Assembly: GCF_005144745.1 (NCBI RefSeq)
Contig: NZ_SWKK01000003.1
Location: forward strand, 310,001-374,000
Direction of reading: 5' to 3'
From: Flavobacterium sp. ASW18X
GTDB lineage: Bacteria > Bacteroidota > Bacteroidia > Flavobacteriales > Flavobacteriaceae
Length of the DNA stretch: 64,000 nt
Shown: positions 7,550 to 37,315 of the stretch, in pieces
Layout of the letters: every line of letters starts with the position of its first letter
Position numbering within the stretch: position 1 is the first letter of the stretch
Made by a program: the position numbers and the translations under genes
The notes under the pieces: model-generated
Database searches by the model: none
What the model was told of the DNA's origin: nothing
Seen by the model: the letters and a program-made list of their open reading frames with translations, nothing else

Positions 7550-10500
7550 ATGTTACATCAATTTAAGATAGAAAATTTCAATACCCTGAGTGGTGCTACG
7601 CAAGACATTCAATTGTCTTATCAGCTTTTTGGTAAAGAATTGCACACGGCCCCAATTGTGATGGTGAATCATGCATTGACGGGTAACTCAAATGTTACCG
7701 GAGACGACGGCTGGTGGTCAGAAATTATTGGAGAAGGAAAATGTATAGATATCCAAATTTATACCGTGCTGGCATTTAACATTCCGGGTAATGGGTTTGA
7801 TGGCTTTGTCATAGAAAATTATAAAGATTTTGTGGCTGGCGATATGGCACGTATTTTTCTAAAAGGATTAGAATTACTTAAGGTAAACCACTTACATGCT
7901 TTGGTAGGTGGTTCTTTGGGTGGCGGCATTGCATGGGAAATGATTGCGTTAAAACCTGATATTGCCGATAATTTAATACCGGTGGCATCCGATTGGAAAT
8001 CTACGGATTGGTTAATTGCCAACTGCCAAATTCAGGAACAGTTTTTGGTTAATTCCAAGAATCCAGTGCATGACGCTCGTATGCATGCCATGTTGTGTTA
8101 CCGTACACCAGAGTCTTTTAAAGAACGCTTTAAAAGAAGTACCAATGAGGAGCTCAATGTGTTCAATGTAGAAAGTTGGTTAATGCACCACGGTAAAAAG
8201 TTGCAAGAACGCTTTCAACTATCAGCATATAAGCTGATGAACCAACTACTCAAGACTATTGATATAACTCGCAATGGTGAAGCCATTTTTACCAAGATTG
8301 AAGAAAGCAACATACGCATACACATCATTGGGGTAAATTCTGATTTGTTTTTTACCGCTGAAGAAAACAAGGAAACGTACAAAAGATTGGCTCAAAGTAG
8401 TAGCAATGTTACCTACGGTGAGGTACAATCGTTGCACGGGCATGATGCATTTTTAATAGAATTTAAACAATTAGAAAATTTAATACGCCCGGTATTTGAG
8501 CAGCAACGTGTTCAATCTGGATTAAAGGTTTTAAAATTTGGTGGTCGTTCTTTGGCCAATGGTAAAGGTTTAAATGCGGTTCTGGACATACTAGCCCAAA
8601 GGGTTGCGGCTGGCGAACGTTTGGCGGTTGTACTTTCTGCTAGAGAAAAAGCTACGGACACCTTGGAGCGCATGTTAGAAAAAGCCGCTTCCGGAGGGGA
8701 TTATAGCGTAGATCTACAAAGCTTTGCCCTTTACCAACAGGCAGGTTTGGCCCAAGTAGATATGAGTCAAGAACTTTCGGTATTGGAAAGCAAATTAAAT
8801 GGTGTTGCCCTTTTGGGCGATTATAGTGCTAAAACCAAAGATGAGGTATTGTCTTTTGGCGAGCTTATTTCAGGGCAATTGGTGAGCCGATTGTTAAAGG
8901 AAAAGGGTATTAACGCGGTATTTATAGATTCGCGCCAGCTCATAAAAACAGATAATGCTTTTGGAGAAGCAAAGGTAGACGAAGGTTTGTCCAAGATCAA
9001 AGTGGTTGAAAAATTTGCCCAATTAGAACCAGATGCAGTGCCAATTATTACGGGCTTTATTGCCTCTAATGAAAAAGGGGAAACTACTACTTTAGGTAGA
9101 AATGGTAGTAACTACACGGCATCTCTATTCGCCAATTTTTTAGATGCAGAGGAATTACTGAATTATACACATGTAGACGGAATTTTTACCGCAAACCCAG
9201 ATGTGGTTACAGATGCCAAAATCATAGATTCACTTTCATTTGCAGAGGCAAATGAGCTAGCCAATTTTGGGGCTAATATTCTACATGCAAAGACCATAAT
9301 TCCGCTTTTAGAAAAGAATATTCCCTTACGTATTTTAAATACGTTCAATCCAAAATCTAACGGTACATTGATTAGTGCTGATGGTGGCAAACAAGGTATT
9401 ACCTCTTTGAGTGTAATGGAAAATATGGCATTGATTAACCTAGAAGGTCGTGGTTTGCTAGGTAAAGCGGGTGTAGATGCGCGTATTTTTAATGCCTTGG
9501 GCCGCAGAAATATAAGTGTAGGTATCATATCTCAAGGTTCCTCAGAAAGAGGTATTGGTTTGGTGGTAAATGCCAAGCGCGCTTTGGATGCCAAAAAAGC
9601 GCTTGAAGATGAATTTGCAAATGATTTTGGTTCTAAAGACGTTAACAGTATTTCGGTAAATAAAGAAGTAGTGGTAATTTCTGTGGTGGGGCAAGATTTG
9701 AGCTCTTTTCACGAACCGTTTAATGCGCTGATAAAGAATAAGGTCGTACCTATTTTATTCAACAATACGGTATCTGGTAAAAACATCAGTTTGGTGTTCC
9801 ATAAACAAGATTTACACAAAGCCGCCAACGTTATGCATGGGCAAATTTTTGGTATCGCAAAGCGAATTAACCTTGCCATTTTTGGAGTAGGTACGGTAGG
9901 TGGCACGCTTATAGACCAAATTTTGGCTTCTAAAGAAAGCATTGTAGATAGAAAAGGGATAGAGGTAAATATTTTCGCTGTTGCTAATTCTAAAAAAGTG
10001 TTGTTAAATAGAAAAGGTGTTGGTGCCCAATGGAAGCAGAATCTCCTAGGGCAAGGAGGAACCTATAATTTAGACACGCTTATAAAGTTTGCACAAGAAA
10101 ATCACTTAGAAAACTTAATCGCAGTGGATAACACGGCGAATGCGGAATTTGTGAAACACTACAGTAAACTTATTAAGGGCGGGTTCGATTTGGTATCGTC
10201 TAATAAAATAGCCAATACGCTTGATTATCAGTTTTATAAGGATGTTAGAAAGGAGTTGAATGCCAACCGCAAACAGTATTTGTACGAGACAAACGTGGGG
10301 GCAGGCTTACCTTTGATAGACACCATTAAATTGTTGCATTTATCAGGAGAGAATATTACCCGCATAAAAGGGGTGTTCTCAGGTTCTTTAAGTTACATAT
10401 TTAATACGTTTTCTGTAGCCGATGTGCCTTTTTCTAAAGTTGTATTAGAAGCAAAAGAAAAAGGATACACGGAGCCAGACCCTAGAGAGGATTTATCTGG

Positions 10501-33157: not shown

Positions 33158-33202
33158 TCATTCATAAAGAAAGGGTAATCTTAGCCAAACATTTACAACA
33201 AG

Positions 33203-33274
33203 ATGAGCAAATTATATTTCTGGAACCGTTTTTATTTTTACTTCTTTTTCCAAAGAGGTACGGGACTGTTCTAG
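33203..33274 (+). CDS. Phe/Tyr-rich leader peptide of the aromatic operon
   Basis: A 24-codon ORF (stop included) starts at ATG 33203 and ends at TAG 33272-33274. Eleven of its 23 residues are aromatic: seven Phe, three Tyr and one Trp, with a block of eight aromatic-rich codons (residues 10-16 read FYFYFFF). The last codons contain CGGGAC (33261-33266), the antiterminator arm. It lies directly before the attenuator terminator and pheA. Ribosome stalling at Phe or Tyr codons when charged tRNA is scarce would favour antitermination. Confidence 0.85.
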   Translation: MSKLYFWNRFYFYFFFQRGTGLF

Positions 33275-33332
33275 CTATATGTAACTAAATAAAACAATAA
33301 GGTCCCGATGTTAAATTCGGGACTTTTTTTTT
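33261..33332 (+). promoter_or_regulatory. Transcription attenuator of the pheA operon
   Basis: Three segments compete: CGGGAC at 33261-33266 (inside the leader ORF), GTCCCGA at 33302-33308 and TCGGGAC at 33317-33323. The first with the second forms an antiterminator; the second with the third forms a 7-bp terminator with a 9-base T run (33324-33332) that ends 3 bases before the pheA ATG. The layout is that of classical amino-acid attenuation. Confidence 0.85.
33301..33332 (+). terminator. Attenuator terminator hairpin
   Basis: GTCCCGA/TCGGGAC stem, 8-base loop, nine T. It stands before, not after, the operon. Confidence 0.88.
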
Positions 33333-33335
33333 GCA

Positions 33336-34166
33336 ATGGATTTAAAAATAGCCATACAGGGAATAAAAGGGAGTAACCATCACAAGGTAGCTAAAGATTA
33401 CTTTGGAGATGCCATTAGTTTGGTAGAGTGCATGTCTTTTGATAAGTTGGTGGCCAGCGTTCTAGATGGTACTGCAGACAAAGCGGTAATGGCCATAGAA
33501 AACTCTATTGCGGGGAGCATAATTCCCAATTACAATTTAGTTTACCATAATAATTTGCACATTATAGGGGAGCAATATCTAAACATTAACCATAATTTAA
33601 TGGTGTTAAAAGGGCAAGATATTTCTAAAATTACAGAAGTGCGATCCCACCCTATGGCTTTGTTACAGTGCATGGATTTTTTAAAGCAGTACGACCATAT
33701 TAAATTGGTAGAAGATGTGGATACGGCAGAAACAGCAAAACAAATCCAAGAAAATCAATTAGCGCATGTAGCCGCAATTGCCCCAGATGTAGCTGCCGAG
33801 TTGTATAATTTAGAAATTATAGCGCCGGCCATACAAACCATAAAAAATAACGCTACGCGTTTTATTATCCTGAAAAAGGAGAACAAAGAATGGCCTAAGG
33901 AAGCAATTAACAAAGCGTCTCTTAGGTTTATTACAGACCATAAAAGAGGTAGTTTGGCAACCGTACTTAATGTGATGAGCGATTGCCATTTAAACCTAAC
34001 TAAAATACAATCCCTACCCGTAATTGAAACCCCTTGGAAGTACGCTTTTTTTGTAGATGTAACTTTTGATGCGTATCAAAATTTTGCTAAAGCGAAAAGT
34101 TTACTAGAAATAATGGCAGAAGATTTTAGGGTATTGGGAGAATATAAAAATGCATTGATAAAATGA
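33336..34166 (+). CDS. pheA: Prephenate dehydratase
   Basis: PheA converts prephenate to phenylpyruvate. The 276-residue protein has the bi-lobed periplasmic-binding-like fold (AIQGIKGSNHHKVAKDYF, AVMAIENSIAGSI), the catalytic region NNATRFIIL and a C-terminal ACT domain (RGSLATVLNVMSDCHLNLTKIQS) that normally binds phenylalanine for feedback. There is no fused chorismate mutase; that activity is on the DAHP synthase gene of the same operon. Confidence 0.95.
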   Translation: MDLKIAIQGIKGSNHHKVAKDYFGDAISLVECMSFDKLVASVLDGTADKAVMAIENSIAGSIIPNYNLVYHNNLHIIGEQYLNINHNLMVLKGQDISKITEVRSHPMALLQCMDFLKQYDHIKLVEDVDTAETAKQIQENQLAHVAAIAPDVAAELYNLEIIAPAIQTIKNNATRFIILKKENKEWPKEAINKASLRFITDHKRGSLATVLNVMSDCHLNLTKIQSLPVIETPWKYAFFVDVTFDAYQNFAKAKSLLEIMAEDFRVLGEYKNALIK

Positions 34167-35305
34167 CAACGGCAGACAGATTAAACTCGGTACAAGAGTA
34201 CTACTTCTCTAGAAAATTAAGAGAGGTGCGTGGTCTTATGGCAGATGGGAAGCCCATAATCAATATGGGCATAGGTAGTCCAGATTTGGCACCTTCGCCT
34301 AAGGTGTTACAAACACTAAGTGCAGCTATTTTAGATGCAGGGGCGCACCAGTATCAGAGTTATCAGGGCTTACCAGAATTACGATTGGCAATTGCCAAAT
34401 TTTATCAAGATAAATTTAATGTATCGGTAGATGCCAATACAGAGGTATTGCCTTTAATGGGGTCTAAAGAAGGGATTATGCACATTAGCATGGCCTTTTT
34501 AAATGTGGGAGATGAGGTGCTTTTGCCCAACCCAGGATATCCCACCTATGGATCGGTTACCAAATTGGTAGAAGCAGTACCAAAAACGTACGATTTAACT
34601 GCGGAGAATGGATGGTTTCCAGATTTGGAAGCGCTGGAGAAAGAAGATTTAAGCAAGGTTAAATTAATGTGGGTGAGTTATCCGCATATGCCAACAGGAG
34701 CAACCGCAACCACCGAGCAAATGCAAGAACTATTGGCATTTGCCAAGCGCAACTCTATTTTATTGGTGAATGACAATCCGTATAGTTTTGTTTTGGCCAA
34801 TAACCCAACAAGTATGTTATCCCTGCCAGGGGCAAAAGAAGTGGCCTTGGAATTAAATTCATTGAGCAAAACTTTTAATATGGCAGGTTGGCGTGTAGGA
34901 ATGCTATTGGGGAATGCTGATTACATTAATGCAGTACTTAAGGTAAAGAGCAATATGGATTCCGGAATGTTCTATGGTATTCAAAAAGGAGCTGTAGCTG
35001 CTTTAGAAAGCGGTAAGGAATGGTTTGAAGCTTTAGACGAGATCTACCAAAAAAGAAGAGCTTTAATCTATCAATTAGCAGATAAATTGGGGTGTACCTA
35101 TGATACCAATGCTGTTGGTATGTTTGTTTGGTGCAAACTACCGGCAGGTGTCAAAGACGCAGAAAGTTTTGTTGATGAGGTGTTGTACGATAGGAATATT
35201 TTTATTGCGCCAGGTACCATTTTTGGAACAAACGGTGAGGGATATATTCGTTTTTCGCTTTGCGTAAAAGAAGAGAAAATACAAGAAGCCATAGAAAGAT
35301 TCTAA
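34163..35305 (+). CDS. Class I/II PLP aminotransferase of the aromatic operon
   Basis: The 380-residue aminotransferase has GIGSPDLAPSPKV, NPGYPTYG, NDNPYSF and the PLP lysine in ELNSLSKTFNMAGWRVG. It overlaps pheA by four bases (ATGA) and precedes tyrA, so it most likely transaminates phenylpyruvate and 4-hydroxyphenylpyruvate. Specificity is inferred from context. Confidence 0.9.
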   Translation: MTTADRLNSVQEYYFSRKLREVRGLMADGKPIINMGIGSPDLAPSPKVLQTLSAAILDAGAHQYQSYQGLPELRLAIAKFYQDKFNVSVDANTEVLPLMGSKEGIMHISMAFLNVGDEVLLPNPGYPTYGSVTKLVEAVPKTYDLTAENGWFPDLEALEKEDLSKVKLMWVSYPHMPTGATATTEQMQELLAFAKRNSILLVNDNPYSFVLANNPTSMLSLPGAKEVALELNSLSKTFNMAGWRVGMLLGNADYINAVLKVKSNMDSGMFYGIQKGAVAALESGKEWFEALDEIYQKRRALIYQLADKLGCTYDTNAVGMFVWCKLPAGVKDAESFVDEVLYDRNIFIAPGTIFGTNGEGYIRFSLCVKEEKIQEAIERF

Positions 35306-35307
35306 AC

Positions 35308-36168
35308 ATGAAAGTAGTTGTAGTTGGCATTGGTTTAATTGGAGGCTCTTTCGCAAAAGACATTCGGGAAACGCATCCAGAAGTACGCATAGAGGGTATA
35401 GAAGCAAATACTTCGCATATAGAAGAAGCTATCAATTTGGGTTTAATAGATGCGGCTACCACCTATAAGGGTTTAGCAGATGCAGATGTGGTAATTGTAG
35501 CTATTCCAGTAACAGTTTTGGCTAAAGAGTTACCCATCATCCTAGACTATGTTGGGGAAGAAACAGTGGTGATTGATGCTGGTTCTACCAAAGCACAAAT
35601 TTGTAAGGTTGTAGCGGAACATCCAAAACGTAGAAATTATTTGGCTTGCCATCCTATAGCAGGTACCGAGTATTCTGGGCCATCTGCAGCAATCAGTGGA
35701 TTATACAATGGCAAAACCAATATTATCTGTGAGGTAGAGCAGACCGCATTTAAGTTACAAGAAAAGGCTTTGGCCTTATTTGAAAAATTAGGCATGAGAA
35801 TACGGTACATGAATCCGGATAATCATGATAAACATATAGCTTATGTATCTCATCTGTCACACATTAGTTCCTTTATGTTAGGAAAGACGGTTATTGAGAA
35901 AGAAAAAAATGAGCGTGATATTTTTGACATGGCTGGGAGTGGATTTGAGAGTACGGTGCGGTTAGCCAAAAGTTCCCCTGCAATGTGGGCACCAATTTTT
36001 GAGCAAAACAAAGCAAATGTGTTAGAAACATTAACCGAGTACATTAATAACTTGGAATCCTTTAAAAAAATGATGGAGGATGATGATTTTGATGGACTTT
36101 ATAAAGAAATGAACAATACCAATAGAATAAAACAAATATTAAACGGAATACCACTTACTAAAAAATAG
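35308..36168 (+). CDS. tyrA: Prephenate dehydrogenase
   Basis: TyrA oxidatively decarboxylates prephenate to 4-hydroxyphenylpyruvate. The 286-residue protein has the NAD motif VVVGIGLIGGSFAKD, CHPIAGTEYSGP and the HDKHIAYVSHLSHI active-site helix. ATG 35308 is 2 bases after the preceding stop; the in-frame codons upstream are inside the aminotransferase gene. No ACT domain is seen. Confidence 0.95.
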   Translation: MKVVVVGIGLIGGSFAKDIRETHPEVRIEGIEANTSHIEEAINLGLIDAATTYKGLADADVVIVAIPVTVLAKELPIILDYVGEETVVIDAGSTKAQICKVVAEHPKRRNYLACHPIAGTEYSGPSAAISGLYNGKTNIICEVEQTAFKLQEKALALFEKLGMRIRYMNPDNHDKHIAYVSHLSHISSFMLGKTVIEKEKNERDIFDMAGSGFESTVRLAKSSPAMWAPIFEQNKANVLETLTEYINNLESFKKMMEDDDFDGLYKEMNNTNRIKQILNGIPLTKK

Positions 36169-36179
36169 AGATTAGGATT

Positions 36180-37262
36180 ATGGAAAATTCAAAAGAGATG
36201 AGGAAATGGTTGGATGATATGGCGTTGCCACATCCCTTAGTAGTTGCAGGACCATGTAGCGCAGAAACCGAAGAGCAGGTGCTTAAAATTGCACACCAGC
36301 TTAAAGATACGGATGTAAATTATTACCGTGCCGGTATATGGAAACCAAGAACAAGACCAGGAAATTTTGAAGGAGTAGGCGCTATTGGACTAAAGTGGTT
36401 GCAAAAAGTAAAAGAAGAGACAGGTTTAAAAACCGCTACGGAGGTTGCCAATAAAGCACACGTAGATTTGGCTTTGGAGCATGATGTAGATATGCTGTGG
36501 ATTGGTGCACGTTCTACGGTGAGTCCTTTTATAATGCAAGAGTTGGCAGATGCCTTAAAAGGAACAGATAAAATAGTCTTGGTAAAGAATCCTGTGAACC
36601 CAGATTTAGCCTTGTGGTTAGGTGGTATAGAGCGTTTGCATACGGCAGGGATTAAAAAATTAGGAGCCATCCATAGAGGGTTCTCTACCTATGAGAAGAC
36701 CAAGTATAGAAATATACCAGAATGGCAAATGGCTATTGAATTCCAGAATAGATTTCCAGATTTACCTTTAATCAATGATCCATCGCATATTACAGGTAAG
36801 AGAGATATGATTTTTGATGTTTCTCAGACGGCTTTAGATTTAAATTTTGATGGTTTGATGATTGAAACACACCATGATCCAGATAATGCATGGAGTGATG
36901 CCGCTCAACAAGTTACTCCAGAAAAATTGGTTCAAATTATGAGGGATTTAAAGATCAGAAAAGAGAGTGATTCAGAGGCGGAATATAATGCGCAATTGAG
37001 TAACCTTAGAGCACAGATTGATGTGATAGACAACCAGTTGATTGAGACTTTAGGTAAAAGAATGAAGGTTTCTGATAGTATCGGTGAGCTTAAAAAACAG
37101 AAGAATGTTGCTGTTCTTCAATCGAACAGATGGAATCAAATTTTAGGTGCAATGATTTTAGAAGGGGAAAGCAAAGGCTTAAGTGAAGAGTTTGTGCTTC
37201 GTATGTTCAAAGCTATCCACCAAGAATCTATCAATCACCAAGAAAAGATAGTAAACGGTTAA
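36180..37262 (+). CDS. Bifunctional 3-deoxy-7-phosphoheptulonate synthase / chorismate mutase (type II)
   Basis: The 360-residue protein joins the first enzyme of the shikimate pathway with chorismate mutase. Residues about 15-260 are a KdsA-like DAHP synthase (VVAGPCSAETEEQ, RAGIWKPRTRPGNFEG, INDPSHITGKRD); residues about 275-360 are an AroQ helical mutase (LRAQIDVIDNQLIETLGKRMKVSDSIGELKKQ). The mutase supplies prephenate to the pheA and tyrA products of the same operon. Confidence 0.95.
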   Translation: MENSKEMRKWLDDMALPHPLVVAGPCSAETEEQVLKIAHQLKDTDVNYYRAGIWKPRTRPGNFEGVGAIGLKWLQKVKEETGLKTATEVANKAHVDLALEHDVDMLWIGARSTVSPFIMQELADALKGTDKIVLVKNPVNPDLALWLGGIERLHTAGIKKLGAIHRGFSTYEKTKYRNIPEWQMAIEFQNRFPDLPLINDPSHITGKRDMIFDVSQTALDLNFDGLMIETHHDPDNAWSDAAQQVTPEKLVQIMRDLKIRKESDSEAEYNAQLSNLRAQIDVIDNQLIETLGKRMKVSDSIGELKKQKNVAVLQSNRWNQILGAMILEGESKGLSEEFVLRMFKAIHQESINHQEKIVNG

Positions 37263-37287
37263 GAGTAACATAACTTTATAAATACAA

Positions 37288-37315
37288 AACATCCGTAATA
37301 TGCGGATGTTTTTTT
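37288..37315 (+). terminator. Terminator of the aromatic operon
   Basis: AACATCCG and CGGATGTT form an 8-bp stem with a 7-base loop and a T tract. Confidence 0.9.

Follow-up and report, generated by a model that had tools for sequence, protein, structure and literature searches.

Textbook pheA attenuators respond to phenylalanine only. The enterobacterial example, held in Rfam as RF01859 (Phe_leader), consists of an aromatic leader peptide, hairpins and a terminator before pheA. The trp attenuator of Escherichia coli is built of four regions with the regulatory codons in region I, and when its leader is not translated, the pairing of I with II and of III with IV gives rise to super attenuation (PMC1183508). 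Within Bacteroidota, the Bacteroid-trp leader (RF01692) is also a leader-peptide RNA, but it concerns Trp and another operon. A putative attenuator before pheA > hisHb > aroAIbeta-aroQ > tyrA of Bacteroides thetaiotaomicron was listed in 2005; the entry, in Table 7 of that paper, derives from a database of predicted attenuators, and the passages on it give no leader peptide, codons or conservation (PMC1173090). In 2021, a structured 5' element before pheA of Flavobacterium psychrophilum, kept in other Flavobacteriaceae genera and without an Rfam hit, was reported together with strong clues for leader-peptide attenuation before amino-acid operons; the peptide and arms of this element are not described in section 19 of the paper and may be in its supplements (PMC9723704). 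The initial annotation of the DNA discussed here held that amino-acid attenuation is little described in Bacteroidota, a statement that needs qualifying, since RF01692 and both of these studies precede it. The earlier B. thetaiotaomicron and flavobacterial predictions, taken with RF01692, mean that the kind of switch is already known. Lopatovskaya et al. (2010) reportedly made a comparative study of attenuation, which may cover Bacteroidota. Passages of PMC2864571, PMC7366714, PMC4833913 and PMC6414381 have no direct bearing here. No description of a mixed Phe/Tyr leader, of its four segments or of its spread was found in the literature searched, and one may exist elsewhere.

The 64,000-nt stretch of Flavobacterium sp. 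ASW18X DNA that was analysed, here called the window, carries what is very probably a ribosome-mediated transcription attenuator of the trp/pheA type, which would sense charged tRNA-Phe and tRNA-Tyr and control a pheA-aminotransferase-tyrA-DAHP synthase operon. RF01859 is the top-scoring Rfam match there (33213-33332, E 0.0016), at 33 bits against a gathering cut-off of 55. Three of 18 relatives score 30.9, 30.7 and 29.2 bits with the same model, and the other 15 have no match at E <= 0.5. RF01692 is not among the 20 Rfam matches at the pheA leader. In contrast to the enterobacterial pheA leader, which holds Phe codons alone, the leader in the window mixes Phe and Tyr codons, and its operon adds tyrA and a DAHP synthase. 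The gene set and the phylum are shared with the B. thetaiotaomicron operon, whose last two genes stand in the other order (PMC1173090). As in E. coli trp, there are four segments and a predicted default-off state without translation, to which the window adds a nested hairpin in the ORF and ten control codons for two (in relatives often three) amino acids (PMC1183508). The features, all on the plus strand, are as follows.

33177-33184, plus strand: probable -7 promoter element, AATCTTAG, lying 26 nt 5' of the leader start codon (motif TAnnTT(A/T/G)G)
33203-33274, plus strand: leader peptide ORF, 23 codons and TAG, MSKLYFWNRFYFYFFFQRGTGLF, with control codons 5-7 and 10-16 (translation)
33224-33229, plus strand: segment 1, codons 8-9, AACCGT, 5' arm of the 1:2 hairpin, pairing with 33265-33270
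33239-33260, plus strand: nested hairpin within the ORF, formed by 33239-33247 (codons 13-15) and 33252-33260 (codons 17-20) (pairing in 93 rows)
33261-33267, plus strand: segment 2 or arm 1, CGGGACT, codons 20-22, 5' arm of the antiterminator (arm 1:arm 2 pairing)
33299-33308, plus strand: segment 3 or arm 2, AAGGTCCCGA, with GGTCCCG at 33301-33307 (terminator scan, pairing, covariation)
33317-33326, plus strand: segment 4 or arm 3, TCGGGACTTT, 3' arm of the terminator, with CGGGACT at 33318-33324 (scan, alignment)
33324-33332, plus strand: T run of the terminator, nine T, the first of which also closes the stem (sequence)
33336-34166, plus strand: pheA, prephenate dehydratase, 276 aa (PF00800, E 9e-57)
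34163-35305, plus strand: class I/II aminotransferase, 380 aa (PF00155, E 3.4e-61)
35308-36168, plus strand: tyrA, prephenate dehydrogenase (NF006307, 387 bits, cut-off 295)
36180-37262, plus strand: DAHP synthase - chorismate mutase fusion, 360 aa (PF00793 and PF01817)
37286-37312, plus strand: terminator-like hairpin after the operon (terminator scan)

Loci compared

The close set comprises the window, 80 loci and 29 further loci (110 rows), among which 10 regions are duplicates, leaving 100 distinct regions; codon tables cover only the 93 leaders of exactly 23 amino acids among these. The further loci and the far set (30 loci and 60 upstream stretches, respectively) were drawn from about 150 family matches listed; one of the 30 loci, L082, is the window's own copy and was excluded. 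For the distant sample, 80 upstream stretches were fetched from further PheA matches, in two sets of 40. An automatic criterion called for an aromatic ORF, a terminator and a complementary arm 1 upstream of pheA. Alignment A1 was made with MAFFT from 34 rows picked for variety from the 100 distinct close regions, and a covariance model, R1, was built from 34 rows including the window.

Operon and promoter

The pheA gene is the sole PF00800 match in the 3.6 Mb genome. In the list of open reading frames, tyrA runs from a TTG at 35260, but its start is more likely to be the ATG at 35308. The order pheA > aminotransferase > tyrA > DAHP synthase-chorismate mutase is found at 75 of the 80 loci, and the remaining five end within the operon. 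This gene order, with tyrA included, indicates an operon that serves Phe and Tyr alike.

The probable -7 element of the window deviates from the motif TAnnTT(A/T/G)G at its first base. The motif itself occurs at -40 to -15 of the leader ATG in 82 of the 100 distinct close regions (at exactly -26 in 53 of them, and 24-30 nt before the ATG in 81), in 78 of 2000 mononucleotide shuffles and, within -60 to +15, in 48 of 54 far rows. Only 38 of the 100 close regions carry a TTG another 14-26 nt upstream. The strict form TAnnTTTG, the Bacteroidota -7 consensus, was tried and set aside in favour of the fitting variant, as it precedes only six of the 93 leaders. With a promoter-like element 24-30 nt 5' of the ATG, the probable start of transcription is a few bases upstream of the leader.

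The leader peptide and its aromatic codons

Translation of 33203-33274 yields MSKLYFWNRFYFYFFFQRGTGLF, whose 23 residues include seven Phe, three Tyr and one Trp; both the 23-residue ORF with 11 aromatics and its mixture of Phe, Tyr and a single Trp were therefore correctly annotated. This short ORF is rich in codons for the products of the operon that it precedes. The length of 23 residues is kept in 93 of the 100 distinct close regions, where the consensus reads M-T-K-x-Y-F-(W/Y/F)-N-G-F-Y-F-Y-F-F-F-K-R-G-T-G-L-(L/F). In the 93 leaders, aromatic codons fill 923 of the 930 cells at codons 5-7 and 10-16, compared with 39 of 1116 cells outside this control set and the start codon. Diversity increases over codon positions 1, 2 and 3 (0.012, 0.109 and 0.210). 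At codon 7, TGG (64 leaders), TAT (17), TTT (10) and TTC (2) replace one another with no intermediate non-aromatic codon, so that the translated residue is apparently under selection.

Trp is present in 64 of 93 close, 41 of 53 far and 11 of 31 distant leaders. It was considered as an essential signal and rejected because it is absent from the other 29, 12 and 20, respectively. By comparison, every leader counted holds at least two Tyr: 99 of 99 in the close set (L032 left out), all 53 of the far set and all 31 of the distant one. Phe is likewise carried by every leader counted. Tyr is also kept at codons 5 (89/93), 11 (79/93) and 13 (87/93), though one base change would turn each into Phe. 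The presence of Tyr in all of these leaders fits mixed sensing, and it is likely that the leader senses both amino acids. Were the charging of tRNA-Phe alone sensed, with the Tyr codons as neutral stand-ins, the leader would resemble the textbook pheA attenuators, and Phe is indeed commoner than Tyr (on average 5.6 against 3.9 in the far rows). The persistence of Tyr in all three sets, its retention at fixed codons and an operon that makes Tyr too nevertheless argue against Phe-only sensing, which we consider unlikely.

Terminator and antiterminator

Between the leader ORF and the first structural gene, the scan finds an intrinsic terminator as a sequence pattern (33299-33326, 10 pairs). The GTCCCG and CGGGAC arms and the nine T that had been proposed before pheA are confirmed in both the sequence and the scan, and the CGGGAC arm placed within the ORF is there as well, as CGGGACT at 33261-33267. 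Only GCA separates the T run from the pheA ATG at 33336; the remark that the last arm ends 3 bases before the pheA start applies to the end of the T run and not to that of the arm.

As first annotated, the arms are mutually exclusive on paper, and pairing and covariation in relatives bear this out: the 2:3 antiterminator and the 3:4 terminator cannot coexist. Over 98 close rows (L047, without a terminator by the criterion, is left out), arm 1 pairs with arm 2 at 7/7 positions in 79, at 6/7 in 18 and at 5/7 in one, whereas control windows from codons 1-18 reach seven pairs in 0 of 4704 cases and six in 8 of 4704. The pairing of arm 2 with arm 3 in 98 of 98 rows follows largely from the way the rows were chosen. 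The core of arm 2 is altered in 14 rows (GTTCCG, GTCTCG, GTCCTG, GTCCCA or TCCCCG); arm 3 pairs in all of them, and arm 1 pairs 7/7 in 11, with mismatches in L031, L054 and L095. A full matching change is seen in L071, matching changes together with a G-U in L016, L036 and L059, and G-U pairs in the rest.

The far rows carry the comparison further. In 29 of 53, here called Flavobacterium-like, NETLYV or a similar sequence closes the ORF and arm 2 is GTCTCG. Arm 1, as CGAGAC or a close variant, is there read in a different frame (NETL in place of GTGL), which argues that it is an RNA element. The mean score of arm 1 is 10.6 in the far and 12.3 in the distant rows, against 6.8 and 7.6 with a shuffled arm 2. 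A terminator stem-loop with a GAAA tetraloop and an extended stem, CGATGAAAATCG, recurs in 32 of the 60 far rows (e.g., L124, L130 and L137).

A hairpin so placed might also hide the pheA start region, instead of or besides ending transcription, and its end does lie no more than 10 nt from the pheA match in the window and in 36 of the 98 close rows. In 34 of the 98, however, it ends more than 60 nt upstream (at most 109), which is too distant to hide a start, and the stem is followed by six T that are invariant in the 34 aligned rows. Translational control is accordingly considered very improbable.

A fourth segment within the leader ORF

The three arms first described are present, but that description was incomplete: codons 8-9 constitute a fourth segment, which pairs with codons 21-23, and the bare three-arm model was retained and extended for this reason. 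The consensus AACGGT of codons 8-9 pairs with ACTGTT of codons 21-23 in 91.4% of cells over 93 rows, compared with 31-67% when the partner is slid. In the window copy, five of the six pairs form and the fourth is a C-T mismatch. For the nested hairpin, 92.5% of cells are paired over the 93 rows, against 56-71% in slid versions. The 1:2 helix overlaps arm 1 through its 33265-33270 side, so that it excludes the full antiterminator; a hairpin in the coding region thus competes for segment 2.

In A1, 94.5% of cells are paired in the 2:3 structure and 94.7% in the 1:2 plus 3:4 structure, against at most 61% in slid versions, and 0 of 500 shuffles attain either structure on any of five measures; kinship among rows inflates both kinds of figure, such that the counts are not independent events and the shuffles give no probability. 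The rows being related, changes on both sides of a pair are the better evidence, and these occur in 10 of 24 pairs, compared with at most two in slid versions. The terminator stem has 99% of its cells paired and both-side changes in six of nine pairs. Two pairs are weak: 38-57 of the nested hairpin does not form in 15 of 34 rows, nor does 27-63 of the 1:2 helix in nine of 34. Most ORFs are more stable than the mean of their own synonymous permutations (88/93 close, 49/53 far and 27/31 distant). Plain RNAalifold recovers only six pairs of the nested hairpin from the 93 ORFs, and only the inner part of the hairpin from 29 Flavobacterium-like rows. An equivalent hairpin with a different sequence appears in single-sequence folds, namely TATACATA with TATGTATA in several of 12 Flavobacterium-like rows and TACACATA with TATGTGTA in L143.

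The pairing also explains why Asn-Gly and Arg residues are conserved even though they do not serve as control codons. This bears on another interpretation, in which the leader is a nascent-chain arrest peptide of the TnaC kind that senses free Phe and Tyr in the ribosome tunnel rather than tRNA charging. The great stability of peptide length and sequence in the close set would suit an arrest peptide. Between families, on the other hand, the aromatic run is the only common part and the remaining peptide differs, and the conserved non-aromatic residues N8 G9, R18 and G21 L22 coincide with RNA pairing. We give arrest by the nascent chain very little credence relative to sensing of tRNA charging.

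Codon 14 (codons 14-16 are at 33242-33250 of the window) is TTC in all 93 leaders. In 33 of 34 rows, its C forms a nested-hairpin pair with the G of AGA (columns 42-53), and the longest T run in the 93 ORFs is 5-8, never 9. The nested pairing and the avoidance of T runs may each contribute to the fixed TTC.

Model folds and the proposed switch

The window was folded on the assumption that a ribosome covers 12 nt of mRNA ahead of its A site. The untranslated leader is then predicted to form the 1:2 hairpin together with the terminator, at -36.5 kcal/mol, and with a ribosome at the stop codon the terminator forms at -15.3 kcal/mol. With a ribosome anywhere at codons 5-16, arm 1 is paired before arm 3 exists; at codons 10-16 it is fully paired by then, at -11.0 to -12.7 kcal/mol. 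Once arm 3 is present, the minimum-energy structure has the terminator even with a stalled ribosome, and arm 1 is out of the antiterminator helix. Because the antiterminator is lost at that point, switching would have to be under kinetic control, the usual assumption for attenuators of this type.

The last aromatic codon is separated from arm 1 by 10 nt in all 93 leaders of the close set, by 9-11 nt in 48 of 53 far leaders and by a median of 9 nt (range 4-18) in 31 distant ones, whereas the stop codon lies at widely varying distances from arm 1. A kept spacing with a free stop position is what a stalled-ribosome switch requires. In the model folds and by this geometry, the control codons lie where a stalled ribosome would mask segment 1 and spare arm 1.

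The switch may then operate as follows. When Phe and Tyr are ample, the ribosome would reach the stop codon and cover codons 20-23, and with arm 1 covered, arm 2 would pair with arm 3 and RNA polymerase would halt in the T run before pheA. When Phe or Tyr is short, the ribosome would stall on the aromatic codons that make up most of codons 6-15, occupying segment 1 and staying short of arm 1; arm 1 would pair with arm 2 before arm 3 is synthesized, and the operon would be transcribed. Without translation, the ORF would fold into the 1:2 hairpin, arm 1 would be taken up and the terminator would form by default. The fourth segment would in this manner confer a default-off state.

Conservation and spread

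The criterion was passed by 108 of the 110 close rows, by 52 of the 60 far rows, which come from more remote members of the family, and by 23 of 40 rows mostly from outside the family, and hence by 183 of 210 real rows, against 0 of 420 dinucleotide shuffles (0 of 220 for the close set). Many Phe codons are to be expected by chance in AT-rich DNA, and an aromatic ORF might stand next to an unrelated terminator by accident; the shuffles, the deep conservation and the covariation make this coincidence negligibly probable in comparison with a functional leader. A lack of conserved aromatic codons or arms in relatives had been named at the outset as grounds for abandoning the idea, and the comparison found the opposite, with both conserved across the family and in many, though not all, of the other families of the class that were sampled.

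Eight of the 60 far rows and 17 of the 40 distant rows fail the criterion. One of the loci, L200, probably has its leader beyond the 300-330 nt used for these rates, and another ORF was picked there. Leader and hairpin are discernible by eye in the failing rows L186, L199, L238 and L240, and neither was seen by eye in, e.g., L183, L187-L192, L222, L223 and L242-L261. In the first distant sample, an ORF with a terminator occurs in 24 of 40 rows, 23 of which also have arm 1: four of six from the same family, five of 13 from other families of the order, 13 of 16 from the rest of the class and two of five from outside it. In the last sample of 40, it occurs in seven of 20 rows within the class and in none of 20 outside, so that 33 of the 40 lack it by the criterion. 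Outside the class, ORF and terminator are found in two of 25 rows and arm 1 by the criterion only in L208; for fused PheA frames there, the 900 nt were counted from the match and not from the start of the frame, and a leader farther away could escape. Judged from sequence, the arrangement is common but patchily distributed within the class, and beyond the class it is for the most part lacking.

The two rows from outside the class, L207 and L208, have an aromatic leader and a terminator before pheA, with a weak arm 1 in L207. The PheA of L207 is 44% identical to the query, as opposed to 31-36% for the other listed matches of its family, an excess that may point to transfer of operon and leader together.

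In the genome of the window, R1 gives the pheA leader 122.3 bits and the next best candidate 33.7 (150 of 4463 candidates scored). Some match at E <= 0.01 occurs in 86 of 100 family genomes; below about 40 bits, matches overlap the background level.

Other leaders in the same genome

Upstream of hisG (L212, reverse complement 1180-1234), a His-rich leader, MKRNHVHHHTFTIAQAR, ends in a stop codon and is followed by a terminator (AAACCCGTTTGA with TCAAACGGGTTT); it is a probable his attenuator. Upstream of trpE (L213, reverse complement 1288-1345), a Trp leader, MKMFIKNNWWWSNLRITS, also closed by a stop codon, is accompanied by a terminator, and the region matches RF01692 at 70.1 bits (cut-off 49). 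Together with the pheA leader, the probable amino-acid attenuators of this genome thus number at least three. By eye, no leaders were seen for ilvD and two amino-acid-kinase genes (L214, L216 and L217). At about 8525-9340 of the window (L215), a 1139-codon open frame with an amino-acid kinase domain was noted, which is probably a large aspartokinase-type fusion.

Significance

TyrR-like control is not known in the large bacterial group concerned, and the leader is a probable feedback switch for Phe and Tyr synthesis there. The alignment and covariance model would allow annotators to name the leader gene and the RNA element at loci that fall below the Rfam cut-offs. A mixed Phe/Tyr leader furthermore lends itself to testing how signals from two amino acids are combined by one attenuator. 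In its broadest form, we lean slightly towards the view that a shortage of charged tRNA-Phe or tRNA-Tyr (in many species also tRNA-Trp) would open the whole branch, and that the switch may be ancestral to much of the class, its letters having been free to change while the aromatic run, the spacing of about 9-11 nt and the four-segment fold were kept.
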